Source: Pirellulaceae bacterium
GTDB taxonomy: Bacteria > Planctomycetota > Planctomycetia > Pirellulales > Pirellulaceae
DNA length: 64,000 nucleotides
Direction of reading: 5' to 3'
Assembly (NCBI GenBank): GCA_020852965.1
Contig: JADYZV010000011.1
Span: 45,909 to 109,908, forward strand
Positions 46,673-55,357 of the stretch are shown piece after piece; the first letter of the stretch is position 1; the number at the start of each line of letters is the position of its first letter. The notes beneath the pieces were generated by a model. That model was not told where the DNA came from. It did not search any database and saw nothing but the letters and a program-made list of their open reading frames with translations. The position numbers and the translations under genes are program-made.

Positions 46673-47035
46673 CTACGTTTCTCGATATTGGTCGCACCAT
46701 TGAATTAGTCCGCGTCGCAGAAAAAAATGGCTCCGACAGCCAATCTGTCGCCAAACTGAAGGCTGCAGTGTGATCGAGCCATCATCGGCGTGTTCGATCA
46801 GTCTCCACCTTGGTTTGGCATCAGGCAGAAGGCTCACCTGGAGTACTTGCTTGCACCCGCAAGGGCAAAGCAAGGCCACGAACCATAAATGCTTGCCCTC
46901 GCCTAAAACATAGACAGCTTTTGGGTCGAGCTTGTCCGGCAATTCCTCGACGTGAACGGTTCGCAGCGGTCGAACACGCTGAACAAACCACGACCGCAAC
47001 CAACCCCAGATGCCAGCCAATATCCGTCGCATCAA
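46673..47035 (-). CDS. DUF6527-type small zinc-binding protein of the UBL operon
   Basis: 120 residues. After a hydrophobic, basic N-terminus (RRILAGIWGWLRSWFVQR) come beta strands with CPCGC (C57, C59, C61), PRW, the acidic DGSITLQPSVWR and then GCRSHF (C100, H103). The Cys/His set suggests a zinc site. This pattern matches the DUF6527 family as I know it, often encoded beside bacterial ubiquitin-like, E2 and JAB-E1 genes. Its job is not known; a treble-clef E3-like or adaptor role is a guess. Its start overlaps the end of the JAB-E1 gene (ATGA), so it is the third gene of that operon. Confidence 0.75.
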   Translation of the reverse strand: MMRRILAGIWGWLRSWFVQRVRPLRTVHVEELPDKLDPKAVYVLGEGKHLWFVALLCPCGCKQVLQVSLLPDAKPRWRLIEHADDGSITLQPSVWRQIGCRSHFFLRRGLIQWCDQYRET

Positions 47036-48429
47036 ACCTTCCCTTCATCGCTTAACTCCGGCCTGTCCAACAGCGGCGTAACGTCGCCCCGGCCAACCTC
47101 TTTGGCGAGCACTGGACAGACCTTTGAATCGCCTTCAGCATCCTTGAAAACATGCGGCTCATGCACCGCGTATCGCAGCGTTGCATATGCGTTGTTGTCG
47201 TCGTAACGAAAGCGATGAATTCGCGCCAGAAGTTCATTGACGGCCATCGACGCCACCATCGAGTTCACGCTGATGACTGCCGGGCGATCCTCCTGCACTC
47301 CCTTAATATACTTCTGCAACAGTTGCTTCTCGTACTCCGCAGGATCGTCACGTTTCATCAACTCCGCGCGGACATCCTCCGAGTCATAGATTCCACGCGA
47401 CTTTAGACTAGACTTGCCGGGCTGAAGGTAATGCACGGCGCCGGTAATTTGATCGACGCCGCCGGCAGGCAACGCGCGAAGCTGCACGCCCATGTCGATA
47501 TAGGGCAGCGTATAGAAGGTCGCGAGACGATTCAACATATCGCGTGCGGCGAAGCTGTCAGTACAGCCAAACACCAGATCACATGATGCCACCGCTCGCA
47601 CCACGTCGGGCGTGGCGAGATCTTGTGCCAATGGCAGCACTTCGGTCCCCAGTCCGATATTGCCGATTGCCTCGGCCAACACCTCGACCTTGTATCGGCC
47701 AAGATTAGCGTCGCTGGCTTTGGTCATATACATTCGGTTGAGATTCTTCCATTCCGACCGGTCAGGATCGACCAGCACCAGGAACCCAACCCCGAGGCGA
47801 ACGAGTTGCTCGATAAGCGGCGTGCCGGTGCCAGAGCAACCGATCACCGCGATACGCATCTTGCGTAAGCAAGCGACCGTCCCTGCGCCGAACACCTGCG
47901 CGTGCCGCCTGGCAAACTCAGGGATCTCTCGACCAGAGTCGGGATACCACAAGTTCATATCTTCGCCGACCATGCTGACGAGACTCACGGGGTGAAACTC
48001 ACCCTTATCATCGAGCGCCCGTGCGAACATGCGACCGCATGGCAGCATCACTGCGCTCACATGGGGCTGGTTGTCTTCGAGCATCGTGCATACCGAGCCA
48101 AGGAAACTCGCGTCGGACGCGTCGTCATAGCCCGAGAACGTATCCATACCGCCAGGATGGCTGTGGACTTTTAGAATTGCCATGCCGCGGTCAGCGGCCT
48201 CTTTAATCAGGTCGTCAGCAAACTGTGTGGGCCATGTAATGGTGACCGCCGTGCGCTTGCATTCCGCGTGCGGGATCAACACCATCTTGCGTAGCATAAA
48301 TGCATGGCGACCTCGACCACGCAGTCGCCCGCATAGCACGAGCGCTGCGGCCTCCATGCCGTCTCCCGGAAACAAATGTGCTTTGAGCTGCGCGTGCTGC
48401 TCGTCCGTCAATCGAAGAAGGTATTCCAT
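47032..48429 (-). CDS. JAB (JAMM) isopeptidase fused to E1/ThiF-like adenylating enzyme
   Basis: 465 residues. The N-terminal JAMM protease (about 1-160) has the full metal site: E26 in GDGMEAA, then HSHPGGMDTFSGYD (H89, H91, S99, D102). The C-terminal E1/ThiF domain (about 180-420) has the nucleotide loop GCSGTG (197-202), D221 and NLNR (229-232) and FGCTDSFAARD. Cysteines C283 and C289 lie near where E1s place conserved residues, but I see no clear crossover-loop catalytic Cys. The enzyme should both activate and cleave a ubiquitin-like protein. It starts 8 bases after the UBL-E2 stop. Confidence 0.88.
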   Translation of the reverse strand: MEYLLRLTDEQHAQLKAHLFPGDGMEAAALVLCGRLRGRGRHAFMLRKMVLIPHAECKRTAVTITWPTQFADDLIKEAADRGMAILKVHSHPGGMDTFSGYDDASDASFLGSVCTMLEDNQPHVSAVMLPCGRMFARALDDKGEFHPVSLVSMVGEDMNLWYPDSGREIPEFARRHAQVFGAGTVACLRKMRIAVIGCSGTGTPLIEQLVRLGVGFLVLVDPDRSEWKNLNRMYMTKASDANLGRYKVEVLAEAIGNIGLGTEVLPLAQDLATPDVVRAVASCDLVFGCTDSFAARDMLNRLATFYTLPYIDMGVQLRALPAGGVDQITGAVHYLQPGKSSLKSRGIYDSEDVRAELMKRDDPAEYEKQLLQKYIKGVQEDRPAVISVNSMVASMAVNELLARIHRFRYDDNNAYATLRYAVHEPHVFKDAEGDSKVCPVLAKEVGRGDVTPLLDRPELSDEGKV

Positions 48430-48437
48430 TTCCCACC

Positions 48438-49160
48438 TTACCGTTTCAGTTCGTCAAGGAGCCACTGCTCGACGCGGCGGTAATGCACCGCTAGATCGTC
48501 AACCCCTTCGCGCCATTCGTAGTGACGTGACCACTGCTGATACTCCTCTCCGTCGATCTTGAGCGGAGTCAGGTTAGGGATGCCGGTACCGCTTTGCTTG
48601 GACAGATGCGGAAGAAAATAGGCCATGTCGAGCTTGGCTGGCGGATAGCCACCCTCGACTTTGATAGCCATCGTCGCCCTATTGACATTAAAGCCATGAG
48701 GGATTGGATAGCCGTGGATCAGCAACCAGCGAACCCGTTCTTCCTTCACAGTCTCCCAGTTCAGTCCGAGCGAGTTGAGAAACGCGGCATCTTCCTCCGG
48801 CAGGTCAAACGCCCGACGGGCGGGCGGCGCCTCGTGCGCCGCCATTTCCCCGTCAGTTTGAGCCAGTTCCATCGTGACGAACCGCTCGACCCCCTTCTCC
48901 CGCAAATCAACTTTCTCGCCGTCAGTGACCTCGTCCATTTGGCCTCCGCTCAGCTTCTGGTGGATGCGCCACTTATCCGCTGTTTTGCTGACCAGCGCCA
49001 GAAGTTGATCCTTGGTTATGAACGGTGCGTTCACCTCGTAGCGTTCCTTGTCGATGCGAATGCGATATAGTTTCGCTTTCGGCACCGGCTTGCCCTGTTT
49101 GACAAGCTCTTCGACATCCACTTCCTCTGCCTCAAATTCATCTTCTGGCTGCGTAACCAT
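48438..49160 (-). CDS. Ubiquitin-like (multiubiquitin-type) domain fused to E2-like domain, cysteine-free
   Basis: 240 residues. An acidic leader (1-25) is followed by a single beta-grasp ubiquitin-like domain (about 28-104: KLYRIRIDKERYEVNAPFIT, GEKVDLREKGVERF) of the multiubiquitin type. An E2-like domain of the Prok-E2_E kind (about 118-240) follows: DLPEEDAAFLNSLG, GYPIPHGFNVNRATMAI, GGYPPAKLDMAYF, and the terminal WSRHYEWREGVDDLAVHYRR. The whole protein has no cysteine, so the E2 part cannot form a thioester. The UBL domain also has no Gly-Gly end. The ATG at 49160 has AGGAGG 7 bases upstream, an ideal RBS. It is the first gene of its operon. Confidence 0.8.
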   Translation of the reverse strand: MVTQPEDEFEAEEVDVEELVKQGKPVPKAKLYRIRIDKERYEVNAPFITKDQLLALVSKTADKWRIHQKLSGGQMDEVTDGEKVDLREKGVERFVTMELAQTDGEMAAHEAPPARRAFDLPEEDAAFLNSLGLNWETVKEERVRWLLIHGYPIPHGFNVNRATMAIKVEGGYPPAKLDMAYFLPHLSKQSGTGIPNLTPLKIDGEEYQQWSRHYEWREGVDDLAVHYRRVEQWLLDELKR

Positions 49161-49410
49161 TCAAAACCTCCTGGGCCGAGGCCCGGTTGAACACACACCC
49201 ATCAGGATATTGCCGCACCAGCAGGCAACCCCTATATTGACGAGCTAGGCCCTGCCAGCACCGTGCTGCCACCGACCTGAACCTTATTGCCGACGAGCCG
49301 CCGGATTTTGCCATCGATTCCACAAAAAAGTTTTTTTGTGGCGATTTTGCTGTAGTAATCGGCAATAAGAAGTGGGAAGGGACGCCCGGCATCGCCCTGG
49401 GAATGGCCAA
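49161..49410. promoter_or_regulatory. Divergent promoter region between UBL operon and sigma/ImmA operon, with 22-bp palindrome
   Basis: About 250 bases separate the two divergent operons. A perfect 10-bp-arm inverted repeat lies at 49320-49341 (CCACAAAAAA then GT then its complement). Its A6/T7 tracts mean it could be an operator or a bent A-tract. It sits nearer the sigma gene (70-90 bases before its GTG), placing it where a shared regulator could act. I cannot define -10/-35 boxes with confidence. Confidence 0.6.
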
Positions 49411-50025
49411 GTGGACGAACTGATCGCACTTACCGATGAAGAGCAAGAGGCGCTACTGGAGCGGCTGACGCACCATGCGCTTTGCAAGATGCGTCGCTTG
49501 ACCTGGCGTGGAGCGCGCGTGGTCCGTGGCGGCTCGGTCCCCAAAGGGTACGAACCCTACGATTTCGCACTAGACGCGATCCAGCAACTGCTTGACGACA
49601 GTCGAAGCTGGAATCGCGAAGTATATCCAACGCTAGAGTCGGTACTGCGGTCATTCGTCGATAGCAAGATCAGTGGGATGGTGAACCTCACTGAAAACAA
49701 GCTGGACCGCCGTCTTACTCCACCAAAGGGACAGTCGGCCACAATGTATGACATTCCGAATACCGAGTCAGATCCCCTTCGCTTGTTGATCGACGTTGAA
49801 CGCCAGCAACAATTACATGACGCTGCGTTCAAAGAGTTCGACGGTGATACGCTGCTGGAGAACCTGTTCATTTGCATTGAAGACGAAATCACTAAGCCGA
49901 AGGACATTGCCTCCTTGCTCGACATGAAGGTGGAAGAGGTGAACAACGGACTGAAACGCCTTCGTCGCGCGCTCAACAAGTTGGAAAAAAAATTCCTGCC
50001 CGCAGGTGCGAGGGCAAAGTCATGA
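49411..50025 (+). CDS. Sigma-70-like factor or DNA-binding protein heading the divergent operon
   Basis: 204 residues. It begins with helical EEQEALLERLTHHALCK, then WRGARVV, GYEPYDFALDAIQQLL (region-2 like), a loop, and a C-terminal helix-turn-helix (ITKPKDIASLLDMKVEEVNN, GLKRLRRALNKLEKKF), as in region 4 of ECF-type sigmas. The sequence is diverged and I cannot exclude a plain HTH regulator. Start GTG at 49411 gives MDELIALT; an in-frame GTG at 49372 exists. The stop overlaps the next gene's ATG (ATGA). Confidence 0.6.
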   Translation: MDELIALTDEEQEALLERLTHHALCKMRRLTWRGARVVRGGSVPKGYEPYDFALDAIQQLLDDSRSWNREVYPTLESVLRSFVDSKISGMVNLTENKLDRRLTPPKGQSATMYDIPNTESDPLRLLIDVERQQQLHDAAFKEFDGDTLLENLFICIEDEITKPKDIASLLDMKVEEVNNGLKRLRRALNKLEKKFLPAGARAKS

Positions 50026-50453
50026 GCGACGACATTCGCTACAAATACCCAGTTTGGGACCATCTTTTCACTCTGCTTTATCCCTGCGATGAATCAGTGA
50101 CCAACGAGGAGGTCAAAGAGGATCTGGCACGCCTTGGCATCGACATGAAGCCAGCATTTCAACGTCTCCACAAAATGATCGAGGTTCAGCGGGCGAAGGC
50201 CCAGTTTGCATCGGCAAAAGCCAAACGGGCGACCATAGGCGAGAGTATCCATGGCGTCGTTGCCCCGAGGTTTGACGACCTTCGGCAACGGGTCAATGAC
50301 TTTGTCGGGAAGATGAAAGGCGACGAGGCTCAACTCGCTTACTTTCACAAGTTAGAATCGGCTGCTAGCGAAGAAGATCTGCAATCTCTTCTCGATGACT
50401 TGGAGAAGCTCGAAGCCATTCAAGAGTTACCAAATGACTCCAAGAGCAAGTAA
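50022..50453 (+). CDS. Small helical hypothetical protein between sigma-like factor and protease
   Basis: 143 residues, predicted mostly helical (EEVKEDLARLGI, RLHKMIEVQRAKAQ, LESAASEEDLQSLLDDLEK). I recognise no family. It is translationally coupled to the genes on both sides: its ATG overlaps the sigma-like stop and its end overlaps the ImmA/IrrE start by 20 bases. In known ImmA/IrrE pairs the partner protein is a repressor cut by the protease; this protein is a candidate for such a substrate or an anti-sigma-like partner. No TM helix is visible. Confidence 0.65.
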   Translation: MSDDIRYKYPVWDHLFTLLYPCDESVTNEEVKEDLARLGIDMKPAFQRLHKMIEVQRAKAQFASAKAKRATIGESIHGVVAPRFDDLRQRVNDFVGKMKGDEAQLAYFHKLESAASEEDLQSLLDDLEKLEAIQELPNDSKSK

Positions 50454-51222
50454 TACACTGCCACTCGCCGAAGCCTCCAAACTCTGGTCGCTATATGGCT
50501 TCACGTCGCCGAAGGAGTTGATCCTTGAAGACTTGGCGATGGCGATGAATATCTTTGTCGTCGATGCCCGGCTCGACTCCGCCGCCGCAAGGCTTGTTCG
50601 CAAAGGTGACTATGGGCTGATCCGCGTGAGTGATCGACTTCGGTTTTCCGGCCAGCGACGGTTTGCGATCGCGCACGAAATCGGACATTTCGTAATGCAT
50701 AGGAAGGTCTCTCAGCTATTAGCCTGTACCGATTCCGACATGCGTGCAAGCTACCGGTCAAGCCCCTATGAAATTGAAGCCAGCATTTTCGCCGGAGCGC
50801 TGCTTATGCCGCGTGAACTTTTTCAATCCCGTATCGTAAGGACGGTTCCGACAACGGATGTCATCAAAGATCTCGCCAGCGAATTCGACACATCACTTAC
50901 CGCCACCGCACTCAGGTATGTCGAGACATCAAAGGACTATTGCGCCTTCGTTGTCTCCGAGAACAACAGGATTCGGTGGTGGCGGGCCAGCGACTCTTTC
51001 GCCAAACATAATCTTTGGCTTGACAGCAAGAACACTCTGCCACGGCACAGCGCGGCTGCAGCATTCTTCGTTGAAGGAGAAGCGCCCAAAGAGCCAATAC
51101 AAGTGGATTTGAAGGACTGGTTTGGCGAAATGAATGACATTGATTCCGACTATGTAATTGAACAGGCAATACCCCTGACTGAGTTCAATCAGGTGGTAAG
51201 CTTGATATGGTTGCCATGTTAG
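50434..51222 (+). CDS. ImmA/IrrE-family metallopeptidase
   Basis: 262 residues. The zinc motif AHEIGHFVMH (H81-E82-x2-H85) and the downstream third ligand Glu in IEASIFAGALLMPRE (E115) define the family. The region before it (AMAMNIFVVDARL ... RLRFSGQRRFAIA) is the usual approach. After residue 130 comes a C-terminal region of about 130 residues of unknown fold. I chose ATG 50434, inside the end of the previous gene; an earlier in-frame start (50395) would overlap more. Relatives cut repressor proteins under stress. Zinc ligands are all present, so it should be active. Confidence 0.85.
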   Translation: MTPRASNTLPLAEASKLWSLYGFTSPKELILEDLAMAMNIFVVDARLDSAAARLVRKGDYGLIRVSDRLRFSGQRRFAIAHEIGHFVMHRKVSQLLACTDSDMRASYRSSPYEIEASIFAGALLMPRELFQSRIVRTVPTTDVIKDLASEFDTSLTATALRYVETSKDYCAFVVSENNRIRWWRASDSFAKHNLWLDSKNTLPRHSAAAAFFVEGEAPKEPIQVDLKDWFGEMNDIDSDYVIEQAIPLTEFNQVVSLIWLPC

Positions 51223-51663
51223 CAGCTAGATAGCAGTTTTCTTAGCTTGGCGGCCAAGAGGCGATCAAAACCCCATTCGTAGCGACTCGACTATTGCGCT
51301 ACTTCTTTACCTATCAGGAATGTTACAGAATCAGTCGATGCGTCTGTTGTCGGCCGGAAATCATTCCCTCTCAAGACTTGCCGAAATTAAGTTTCCGCAA
51401 ATGATGTCGGCGTCTAAACGTCGTGACACAGGAGGGCGTGACCTGTGCGCCCAAGAGTGGGACCCGCAACCTGCATCGGAGTGAAACGCCGTAGGTACGT
51501 TCTGCAAGGAATTATAGTGGATTTATGTGGGCAGTAGTTTTCCGCTGCCAGTTGACTTCCCCTTGCGTTGACGAGCAACGCATTCGCTCGCAAGACGCCA
51601 AGTAATCGCTCCGTCCATGTAGGACACGCATTGACGCAAGTGGCGGATGCCGGAGCCACTCTG
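51223..51663. other. Non-coding spacer with CGGAGTGAAACGCCG motif copy
   Basis: 441 bases with no supported gene between the protease and the integrase remnant. A copy of TCGGAGTGAAACGCCG is at 51476-51491; related copies are at 53511-53525 and 55993-56008, so three occur around the integrase and nuclease genes. Confidence 0.6.
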
Positions 51664-52709
51664 ATGCCGACAACTCTGAAAAACGCTACCAAGAAGTATA
51701 TTCAAGCACGAAACCTAGCCCGAGGAACCAGAAGCGAATATCAAACTACAATTACAAAGTGGCAGCAGTGGAAGGGGCGAGTGCCTATAGAAAAACTTGA
51801 CCGTCCAACGATTCGAGATTTTCTGGGTTGGGTCTTTGACCGTGCGGTGGAAGAGGGCGGAACAAATCCTGGGCGAACTGCCAACAAGGCTCGCACGCAC
51901 CTTCGTGCTATGATTTCTTGGGCGTGGGAAAACGACCTTCTCGAAATGCCACCGCGTTTCCAAAAGCCGGTCCCATACAACAACGTTGCCGGTAGACACT
52001 ACCTGACAAAAATGAACTCAACGCTCTCTACTTCGCGACTCATGAGATGCAGCGTCCAAGGGGCTGGACGAATTCCACCCCCGTAGGTCGATATTGGCGA
52101 GCAGCGTTAGCCGTTTTCTTCAACTACGGTCTCGATTCTGGAACGGTCTTGGGAACTACACCAGCCCATGAACCGATTCTCTGGCGGCATGTGTCTTGGA
52201 ATAGGACCGCGCCCAATCGCGAAGTAAAAGAGCAGTCGAGATGGGGTTGGCTGACTTACCGTCGAGTCAAAACCGGAAAAGCTTTTTGTCGCCCGATGAA
52301 TCGAGTTGTCCACGCCCATATTAAGAGCCTCCGAGCGGAACATAATCTCCCCAACGACCCCGCGTTCTTGGGTGGTGGCTCGCGACCGAATGTGAGATTC
52401 CGAGAACTCTGTCATCTCGCCGAAATCGCCGCAAAGACAGATGGTGACACGGGAGACCAAATGCCATGGGTACTCAAGGACCTTCGCAAGACTTGTGCCA
52501 CGCACTACGACGAGCACATGCCAGAATCATCAATCGAAATTCTGGGCCACTCTGTGGGCGGTGTTACTTATCGACATTATGCCCATCGTGCTCCGTTGGC
52601 TTTTAGGGTAATCAATACCTTGCCGCAACCATCGGCATTCTCTGCACTGCTGAAGGGATTCGACGAGCAGTGCCCATGTTGCCGGAGGCAGTTTGCCGAT
52701 GCATCATAG
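51664..52709 (+). pseudogene. Tyrosine recombinase/integrase, frameshifted
   Basis: A phage-type integrase split into two frames. The first part (51664 to about 52012) holds the SAM-like core-binding domain (ARNLARGTRSEYQTTITKWQ). At the A-run 52008-52012 the frame must shift by -1 to continue as NELNALYFATHEMQR and on to the stop at 52709. The catalytic domain has the box II motif DLRKTCATHYDEH (Arg), GHSVGG (His) and the nucleophile in TYRHYAH. One A deleted from a run of six would explain it. Integrases mark mobile elements and this one may have brought in the neighbouring genes. It may be a pseudogene or contain a sequencing error. Confidence 0.75.
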
Positions 52710-52907
52710 CTAAAATGGAGCAAAGCGTCGGTTCGGCTACGTCTGGGTCGATGCCCTGTGGATCTCATTCGGTCGATGAAGCCGAAACATCTCTAGGAGG
52801 GATTTCCTTATCTGCGGGAAACGTGTCACATCGCCGGTAGTGGGCAATCGGTGCTGGTACAATCGAAAAGTTCTGGGTGAACGGTGTCGTTGGGCGTAGG
52901 AGCATAT

Positions 52908-53450
52908 GTGAACGTACTTTCCGAAATCCTCCAAACAGCTACAGCGGGTGTAGAGGCAAGATATTTCCACTTGCAGGTTGCTGGCGGAACCCCCGTTTAC
53001 CGGGAGCGAGTCTACTGCTACGAACTGTATCACCAAATGCGTAAGAACTGGCCGGTCGACTGCCAATTTCATCTCAACGGCGAAGTCGACAAGCAGGCTC
53101 ACCCCATCCTGCGTCGGCTTGGAGCAGACTCTGCAAAACCTGACTTTCTCATTCACAATCCCGGAGCAATGGAGAGGAACTACGCAATCATAGAGGTAAA
53201 GCACTCAATGGCCCGTGCTGGTGTCGAAAAGGACCTGCGGACGCTTGACCTCTTTGTACGGGAAGTCAGGTATCAGAGAGCCATCTATCTCATCTACGGG
53301 TCGCAGGCGAACACCGAGGGAGTTGAACAGATCAAGGCAATCGCCAACAATTTACAAATAAATACGCCCATTGAAATGTGGCTGCATTCCGAGGTCAATC
53401 AGCAGGCCAAGCACTACGCTACGCTCCCTCGGACGGTGCCCGACCGCTGA
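52908..53450 (+). CDS. PD-(D/E)XK-type nuclease-like protein
   Basis: 180 residues. The sequence KPDFLIHNPGAMERNYAIIEVK carries a PD-(D/E)XK arrangement: P78-D79 ... E96-V97-K98, the metal and catalytic residues of a restriction-type nuclease fold. No other domain is recognisable. The start GTG 52908 has AGGAGC six bases upstream; GTG 52884 is in frame but worse. The 3' end runs into a tRNA-like stretch (53423-53462), so the last residues (TVPDR) may not be original. Its location in the island suggests a defence role, not proved. Confidence 0.65.
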   Translation: MNVLSEILQTATAGVEARYFHLQVAGGTPVYRERVYCYELYHQMRKNWPVDCQFHLNGEVDKQAHPILRRLGADSAKPDFLIHNPGAMERNYAIIEVKHSMARAGVEKDLRTLDLFVREVRYQRAIYLIYGSQANTEGVEQIKAIANNLQINTPIEMWLHSEVNQQAKHYATLPRTVPDR

Positions 53451-53462
53451 GCTACTAGTCCC
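53423..53462 (-). other. tRNA 5'-half-like sequence
   Basis: Read on the - strand from 53462, the bases GGGACTAGTAGCTCAGCGGT and on give a 7-base acceptor-like strand followed by a D-arm-like GCTC...GGGC pair. The next bases do not form an anticodon stem and no T-arm or CCA end follows, so it is not an intact tRNA. It may be a scar of a tRNA attachment site or a chance match. It overlaps the end of the nuclease-like gene. Confidence 0.25.
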
Positions 53463-53998
53463 AGCGGCGGTCACCTCGACCTGCGACTCGAAATGGATTT
53501 GTTGAGCCTCAGGAGTGAAACGCCGAAGGCACATGGGACGATGAAACCGACGCGTCGGAAAATATCGGATTGCGCGAGGTACTCGCGATCAGGAGCGGCA
53601 ACTGGTGACTTTTCGACCGAAGCTCACGACGAGTTCGGTTGACTGCCCAAGTTAGCGGACACCGACGCTGGTCGGACCTGCTGGCGTAAAAGGAATTTGC
53701 AAATCTAGTCAGCGTCACGCCGATTGAGAGAAAAATGTGCACTTGACGGCACGGCAAGGACTCGCCGTGGCGTGAAACTCCGCCGCCTCGACTAACAACG
53801 TTGAAGATCCAATGCCGCTGGCACGAGTACCTTGGGGGCCTGAACGAGTCGAGAAAACCCTGGAAAACTTGAGTCGTGTGCAGCTGTTGGTGCGTTCCAC
53901 TCCAACCTTATAGCCCTGATCCTTGCTGTCGTTCATTGAAAACGACGAGCCTACTCGTTACCGAAGCGACAAGTGAGGGTTGTAGATTAACTCATGTT
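53451..53998. other. Non-coding spacer inside the island
   Basis: 548 bases with no credible gene. A motif copy AGGAGTGAAACGCCG lies at 53511-53525. Several short open frames on both strands are low-complexity and unsupported. Confidence 0.6.
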
Positions 53999-55357
53999 TC
54001 AGGGCTTCTCGCGGTTCTTCCTCTTATCAAGTTTTGCACGTGTCTTCAGCAAACGAGCTTTCTTGTCCGCCGATTCTCGGGCCTCTGCATTGTCGACGCG
54101 GAGGGCAATGTGCTTTGACCGTATCCCCTCGGGCATCACGAATGTCACCTTCTTTCCGGCGAGAGTCGCTTGCATATGACTAACACGTTTAACGTCCCCA
54201 TTTGCGAATGCCAGATCATACTGCTTGCACTCCAGCTTTCCCGCGCCATAGGCCGCATGGACCTTGACGGCGATATGGTCTGCATTGTGAACTTGGCCTT
54301 TGTATCTGATGCGCAAGTGCTTGCACAATGGCCAGCTCATTTCCAGGTGCGCATGTCCCGAGGGGGATTTCCTTACACCTTCGCTTAGCATCTCTTGGGC
54401 TTGCTTGTTCGTGACCAAGAATCGCCTCATGGTTCTATCGTGCGCCCACTCTGCGACCGTCCCATAGTCCTTTCCGCAGCAGGTACAAATCACCCGTCCT
54501 TCTTGTCGCACCAACGCAGGGTCCTCATCCAGAATTGGCGGGACCACTTCAACAGAACAAACGTGCGGGGCGAGGGAGAACTGAAGATGTGGCGCTACCA
54601 GCGGCATCGGAGCATCTACCGGTTCACATAGGACATCGAAGGAAATCGTCTCAAAGGGGAAACACTGTTGATCGACTGTTAGTTGCGGCTCGTGTCCTGG
54701 TCCTGGTGAGATCTCTACATTTGCCCTCTTCTCTTCCCCTTTTTCCGCCGCTTCATCGTCCAGCTTAAGCAATACATCCCGTTCTCTTTGGGCCACAATC
54801 TTCCAAATGAGAAACTCGGCGTATTGCTGCGGAGTTCCGTGATGTCGACCGCAGGAACAGAGAATTCGACCATCTTGAAGGAGCTTTGCCGGCGGAATAG
54901 CGGAGATTTTAGGCGTAATGCGAACATCACAGATTCTGGGACGAGTCTTGAAACATGGACCAGGCGGACGAAACTCTGACCAGTCGACACTCCGCGCTTC
55001 CTTCAGTGTCACCAGATCGACTTCCAGCTTCTTGGCACGCACAATGACGGGCTTGTAGAATCCTCGGTGAGTGACGATTACAATCTTGTTGACCTTGACG
55101 CCGCCTTCGACGAGGTACTTCCCCATGATGGATTCGAACTTCGTCGAGTCCATCGGCCTACCCTCGTCTTTTGCCTCCACTGCAATCTTTATACGGTATT
55201 CACCTACCTTCGTTTCTATAAGTACGTCGATCTCTCGAGTCTCTGCTTCCCCATCAACCTCGACCAAGACCGACTCGCGAACGACGGCATCATCTGGTGC
55301 CAAGGCCCTTTGGACGAGGCCAACCAGCTCCTGGAACTCGTTTGATCGCTGCGGCAT
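53999..55357 (-). CDS. Mrr-like restriction endonuclease with duplicated Cys-rich module
   Basis: 452 residues. The N-terminal domain (about 1-120) is of the Mrr/PD-(D/E)XK type: FQELVGLVQRAL, then REIDVLIE (D44) and VEAKDEG (E61, K63), with metal and catalytic residues intact. Beyond this is a region with two related modules: DGRILCSCGRHHGTPQQYAE and EGRVICTCCGKDYGTVAEWAH, each a Gly-Arg-hydrophobic-Cys-x-Cys unit about 150 residues apart, perhaps zinc-binding target-recognition domains. The C-terminus is highly basic (KKARLLKTRAKLDKRKNREK). It could cut modified or foreign DNA. ATG 55357 has AGGAG upstream. Confidence 0.7.
   Translation of the reverse strand: MPQRSNEFQELVGLVQRALAPDDAVVRESVLVEVDGEAETREIDVLIETKVGEYRIKIAVEAKDEGRPMDSTKFESIMGKYLVEGGVKVNKIVIVTHRGFYKPVIVRAKKLEVDLVTLKEARSVDWSEFRPPGPCFKTRPRICDVRITPKISAIPPAKLLQDGRILCSCGRHHGTPQQYAEFLIWKIVAQRERDVLLKLDDEAAEKGEEKRANVEISPGPGHEPQLTVDQQCFPFETISFDVLCEPVDAPMPLVAPHLQFSLAPHVCSVEVVPPILDEDPALVRQEGRVICTCCGKDYGTVAEWAHDRTMRRFLVTNKQAQEMLSEGVRKSPSGHAHLEMSWPLCKHLRIRYKGQVHNADHIAVKVHAAYGAGKLECKQYDLAFANGDVKRVSHMQATLAGKKVTFVMPEGIRSKHIALRVDNAEARESADKKARLLKTRAKLDKRKNREKP

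Follow-up and report, generated by a model that had tools for sequence, protein, structure and literature searches.

A cysteine-free ubiquitin-like/E2 fusion with a conserved Ser-x-His at its predicted active site in a Bub-type operon of a Pirellulaceae bacterium

The window analysed here, a stretch of 64,000 nucleotides from a Pirellulaceae bacterium (contig JADYZV010000011.1, positions 45,909 to 109,908 of the forward strand), carries an operon of the bacterial ubiquitination-like (Bub) type. Its first gene fuses a ubiquitin-like (Ubl) domain to an E2-like domain, and is followed by a JAB-E1 fusion gene and a gene for a DUF6527 protein. The genes and sites discussed below are located as follows, in positions of the window:

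48438..49160, minus strand: Ubl-E2 fusion gene (BubA-BubB type), 240 aa, zero Cys
48849..49085, minus strand: Ubl part, about residues 26-104, with Multi_ubiq at 32-96 and a conserved C-terminal QTDG
48846..48851, minus strand: Gly104/Glu105, predicted Ubl/E2 cleavage site, from split relatives, PDB chain ends and low model confidence
48441..48824, minus strand: E2-like part, residues 113-240
48522..48533, minus strand: W210-S211-R212-H213, predicted E2 active site, from conservation in the family-model survey
47032..48429, minus strand: JAB-E1 fusion (BubCD type), 465 aa
46673..47035, minus strand: DUF6527 protein (PF20137, E 2.1e-21)

The Ubl-E2 open reading frame (ORF) starts with an ATG at 49160 on the minus strand, with AGGAGG directly upstream; a plus-strand reading of 48438..49160 was rejected because it contains stops. 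A Pfam scan places Multi_ubiq (PF14452) at residues 32-96 (E 5.7e-12) and Prok-E2_E (PF14462) at residues 120-234 (E 5.7e-32), both above the cut-off, and residues 31..104 of the predicted model align with residues 155-229 of Citrobacter BubA. The initial annotation, made from the letters alone, had described one polypeptide joining these two domains without a cysteine in 240 residues, and this observation is confirmed: its coordinates are right, the gene lies on the minus strand and the count of cysteines is zero. The source genome holds a single PF14462 match, and the closest named homologue of the fusion comes from a Pirellulales bacterium (86% identity).

Neither the catalytic Cys nor the HPN motif of canonical E2 enzymes is present in the fusion sequence. 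By itself, the total absence of cysteine is unremarkable, since a protein of 240 aa would be wholly Cys-free with a chance of about 9% at 1% Cys, and 21 of the 49 rows in the set of fusion homologues (the window's own counted) are Cys-free. What is striking, as read from the alignments, is instead the conserved Ser-x-His at the predicted E2 site. A protein that is Cys-free by accident was rejected as an explanation, because WSRH is found family-wide.

The fairest measure of this conservation is a family-model survey, in which PF14462 was run over four genome sets, each including its centre genome. Matches were found in 16/392, 9/398, 6/199 and 9/395 genomes, which amounts to 40 loci apart from that of the window. 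The E2 domain was extracted in 37 of these; L064-L066, all under the cut-off, did not yield it, and inspection by eye supplied the site residues of L071, L072, L081 and L082. The column of Ser211 contains Ser in 34/37 domains and Cys in 3/37 (L035, L037, L040). Two residues further on, 33/34 Ser forms have His and all three Cys forms lack it, so that Ser-x-His totals 33/37. The alignment of the site is gap-free (W-Q-R-W-S-R-H versus W-A-W-L-C-Y-E in the Cys relatives). Of 15 larger regions, 14 contain an E1 homologue, and two of the three Cys forms have one beside them. Two protein homologue searches, both biased to close relatives, gave WSRH in 120/120 among the matches listed, of 1377 homologues of split E2s, and in 46/49 rows of the fusion homologue set (the window's included), the exceptions being P0042, P0048 and P0049 with 137-149 aa. 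A third protein search, with 120 of 1088 rows listed, contributed little and stayed outside the site tally, and a Prok-E2_B comparison set, matching in 1/246 genomes, was unused.

In the predicted model, Ser211 lies 12 residues ahead of the last helix; the catalytic Cys of UBE2D lies about 13 residues before the matching helix. Furthermore, UBCH5B in which Ser replaces the Cys forms a stable oxyester with ubiquitin (PMC9501438). Since Ser-x-His is kept, relatives have Cys in the same column and the UBCH5B variant holds its oxyester, we predict an oxyester between the Ubl and Ser211, with His213 as a helper. The initial annotation had held that the protein is not a standard E2 and might use another residue, the His of WSRH. 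The catalytic Cys is indeed missing and an alternative residue is predicted; the site is not empty, however, and Ser211 is favoured over the His. A covalent link made by His213 itself, as an acyl-imidazole, would account for the His at +2 in 33/34 Ser forms, but we regard it as highly improbable, given that the Cys forms swap the Ser rather than the His and are without the His, and that L072 has Asn at this position. The same annotation had considered an isolated mutant among Cys-bearing homologues. Such homologues exist (3/37), but the family-wide WSRH rejects the isolated mutant.

Two distant proteins also carry an E2-like domain. Both are long (L036:1492-2586, minus strand; L038:664-1803, plus strand), have SYH at the site of their C-terminal E2-like domain and adjoin an E1 gene. 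The N-terminal half of each reads by eye like repeats of a Ubl domain, and the Ubl model gave no match there.

The second body of evidence comes from the border between the two domains. Gly104, in the linker QTDG, is invariant in a 47-row alignment, and linker residues 101-110 have a predicted local distance difference test score (pLDDT) below 50 in the predicted model. A search with two patterns (G[VI]ERF... in the Ubl, and WSRHY), neither of which includes the Ubl tail, yielded 24 loci, 5 fused and 19 split. The split Ubl ORF ends directly after the Gly104 equivalent in 18 of the 19 split loci; that of L014 is six residues longer. Among the 15 split loci printed from the family-model set, five Ubl ORFs stop at the Gly (two of these loci, L061 and L073, being seeds already counted in the 18/19), six have 2-6 residues beyond it, and four (L062, L069, L070, L081) show no clear match to the Gly end. 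The motif [DEN]G precedes the E2 in 58/58 fused proteins, those of the window and Citrobacter among them. In the PDB, Citrobacter BubA chains end at G229 and BubB chain 9eae_C starts at E230, in the numbering of the plasmid homologue.

Because Gly104 is invariant, split Ubl genes end there and the PDB constructs are split there, the Ubl-E2 protein is likely a precursor to be cut after Gly104, a cleavage that we would attribute to the neighbouring JAB domain. The initial annotation had noted the missing Gly-Gly, which is literally true; a Ubl without a glycine end is nevertheless misleading, as Gly104 is conserved at the border. In an alternative that takes up its proposal of a non-covalent sensor, the fusion works uncut, with the E2 and its own Ubl acting in cis as a modifier or as such a sensor. 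In its favour, the clade of the window's fusion is fused throughout, but this alternative appears improbable in view of the split relatives that end at the Gly, a linker that is variable and of low confidence, the Citrobacter depositions, in which BubA and BubB are distinct chains, and the peptidase domain with JAMM residues encoded next door.

The clade in question was found in an E2 tree of 50 rows from the fetched sets, 21 of them fused, which left out L003, L031, repeats of the seeds and the distant forms with SWH/SYH or Cys. The window's fusion falls into a 7-row clade, all fused (Shimodaira-Hasegawa-like approximate likelihood ratio test, SH-aLRT, 96), and is separate from Citrobacter in the best tree. 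As to whether the fusion is conserved, it is so in this clade and not in the 19/24 split loci of the pattern set. The fused or split state changes 9 times on the best tree, which suggests multiple fusion events; repeated fusion or fission is not claimed, because the well-supported branches force only one change. Relatives of the Ubl/E2 sequences, in fused or separate form, are found on 96 plasmid records, of which 54 are predicted to be conjugative.

The partner genes supply the remaining components. The JAB-E1 gene starts eight bases from the Ubl-E2 ORF, and its product matches BubCD (E 8.3e-80) and is 37% identical to its Citrobacter plasmid homologue. In 25 JAB-E1 proteins, the JAMM residues are conserved as H89 (22/25), H91 (23/25), S99 (23/25) and D102 (23/25); D102 pairs in the alignment with D104 of Citrobacter BubCD, a position occupied by Ala in several of its deposited structures. 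The adenylation core comprises G197-x-S-G-T-G202, D223, R232, K247 and D291. The sole invariant Cys in the 25 proteins is C289, which belongs to the GC.D motif at the adenylation site; C283 and C33 are each at 23/25, and no conserved Cys was found in the later part of JAB-E1 in the 25-protein and 20-row E1 alignments. Thioester E1s usually carry their catalytic Cys in this later part, and its lack of a conserved Cys fits a cascade free of thioesters. S341 (25/25) was considered as an alternative carrier and rejected, because other E1s have in its column the first Cys of a CxxC, which we take to be a structural zinc site. In the 20-row alignment, a Cx(2)C pair follows the PG motif in 9/9 distant E1s (L041, L042, L044-L050) and in 0/11 core Bub E1s; the zinc site may thus possibly have been lost in Bub E1s. 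The DUF6527 gene overlaps the stop of JAB-E1 with its start. Its motif CPCGC...CxxHF, predicted to bind metal, is invariant in 25/25 proteins; L057 has a DUF6527 gene in the corresponding position, and L056 a hypothetical protein with the same coordinates.

On balance, we lean towards a reading of the fusion as a Bub-type Ubl-E2 precursor that is cut after Gly104, whereupon the E2 carries the Ubl on Ser211 and not on a Cys. More specifically, the neighbouring JAB (JAMM) peptidase would cut after Gly104, and the same domain may also strip the Ubl from targets. The E1 domain would then adenylate the freed Gly, and Ser211, aided by His213, would accept the Ubl as an oxyester and pass it to a target. 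A broader proposal, to which we give slightly less than even chances, is that a whole bacterial E2 clade replaced the catalytic Cys by Ser-x-His and runs an oxyester Ubl cascade without a thioester relay, the Cys-bearing sister branch beside E1 genes showing the swap within one family.

Several observations weigh against this reading. At the border, QQG/QYG stands in place of [DEN]G in L078 and L080, two fused genomic loci. At the site, L072 (1/37) has S-x-N, and L061, L073 and L074 among the 37 are seed loci again, so that Ser-x-His stands at 30/34 without them; the 24-locus set was selected with the WSRHY pattern and is unusable for WSRHY conservation. The Cys relatives are few: L040 is under the family cut-off, L037 reaches it only with its neighbours in frame, and no E1 was found near L037 (region L043, ended on the upstream side by the contig end). 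The survey counts apply to phyla other than Bacillota and Chloroflexota. Only C289 is invariant among the Cys of JAB-E1, which points to no route of the Ubl to Ser211, and Iyer et al. 2006 (PMC1779556) rated these Cys-less E2s inactive and probably Ub-binding.

The E2-like domain might instead be catalytically dead and RWD-like, only binding the Ubl or positioning it at the E1 while the target attacks the E1 adenylate directly. Its lack of Cys, the published description as "inactive E2/RWD-like" (PMC1779556) and the missing conserved E1 thioester Cys agree with such a role, as does 9eae, a solved Citrobacter BubCD-BubB complex, which indicates that the E2 docks on the E1. Ser-x-His in 33/37 diverse members and Cys in the same column are unexpected for a dead site, and we consider this alternative unlikely. 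The oxyester reading turns the label "inactive E2" into a testable claim, with the Cys replacement in Bub read from an alignment of Ser and Cys forms. The one-Ubl, Cys-free fusion is a convenient test protein, as a covalent Ubl adduct on it could not be a thioester, and it may help to settle how a carrier E2 does without Cys, the operon type itself being already known. The fusion further points to storage of the Ubl in the form of an E2 precursor; eukaryotic ubiquitin is likewise made as fusions. Overall, the interpretation given in the initial annotation is partly supported.

Divergent from the operon lie the following genes:

49372..50025, plus strand: 217-aa divergent gene, possible regulator
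50022-50453, plus strand: second gene lacking a convincing family match; lies between operon and CapP-like gene
50395..51222, plus strand: M78 peptidase like CapP (PADLOC capP, E 2.9e-56; Pfam PF06114)

Homologues of the M78 gene occur at 10/24 pattern-set loci (E 2e-24 to 7e-4). By analogy, the CapP-like protein is a possible DNA-damage regulator of the operon, its match being in line with the CapH+CapP control of Bub operons. A CapH partner was sought in the 217-aa and 143-aa genes with no convincing family match, and for the 217-aa protein with no convincing PDB match. The 217-aa protein has no family match under E 0.01 in the scans run, Pfam and PADLOC among them; its C-terminal stretch reads by eye like a sigma-factor helix-turn-helix. 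Homologues of it occur at 2/24 pattern-set loci, the near-identical L002 and L003, where they are likewise divergent from the operon. Further along, the N-terminal part of an integrase and a C-terminal part with a weak match occupy two overlapping frames (51568-52086 and 52047-52709, plus strand), and the integrase of this island therefore looks broken. A 188-aa protein (52884-53450, plus strand) is similar to PADLOC PD-Lambda-3_A (E 4.7e-8) and is perhaps a defence gene, and a 452-aa protein (53999-55357, minus strand) has a weak Mrr nuclease match below the cut-off (E 0.0066).

Among known systems, Bil (BilABCD) and type II CBASS Cap2/Cap3 (cyclic oligonucleotide-based antiphage signalling system) are bacterial E1/E2/JAB conjugation systems whose E2s use Cys. 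In contrast to both, the E1 of the window is fused to the JAB and not to the E2. The Cap2 layout of type II CBASS, an E1-E2 fusion by a CD-NTase, also differs from an E2 fused to a Ubl, and no CD-NTase match was found in the 10 proteins scanned (46673-55357). The operon instead resembles type 6e of Iyer, Burroughs and Aravind 2006, with a polyUbl, a Cys-less E2, a JAB-E1 and a metal-binding protein; that paper (PMC1779556) already describes the Ubl-E2 fusion in some species. It labels the type 6e E2 inactive, whereas the conserved Ser-x-His in the Cys column of relatives argues otherwise, and gives a metal signature C-x3-C ... H-x2-C that is similar, not identical, to the CxCxC ... CxxH of the window's family.

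The closest reference is the Bub operon of Citrobacter, with BubA, BubB and BubCD (PDB 9ea4, 9ea8, 9eae, 9eav; Ye et al. 2026, as cited in PMC13373217). Both share the gene order, the JAB-E1 fusion, DUF6527, an E2 with WSRH at a site without Cys, and a Ubl-E2 fusion that splits at Gly/Glu. Citrobacter BubA (9d59) has three Ubl domains versus one in the window fusion, the window E2 is about 35% identical to BubB, and the Citrobacter plasmids carry an unnamed gene and a winged-helix regulator versus the CapP-like gene near the window operon. With its multi-ubiquitin Ubl, BubB-like E2, E1 fused to JAB and downstream DUF6527, the window operon is, by its sequence features, a new member of the known Bub system.
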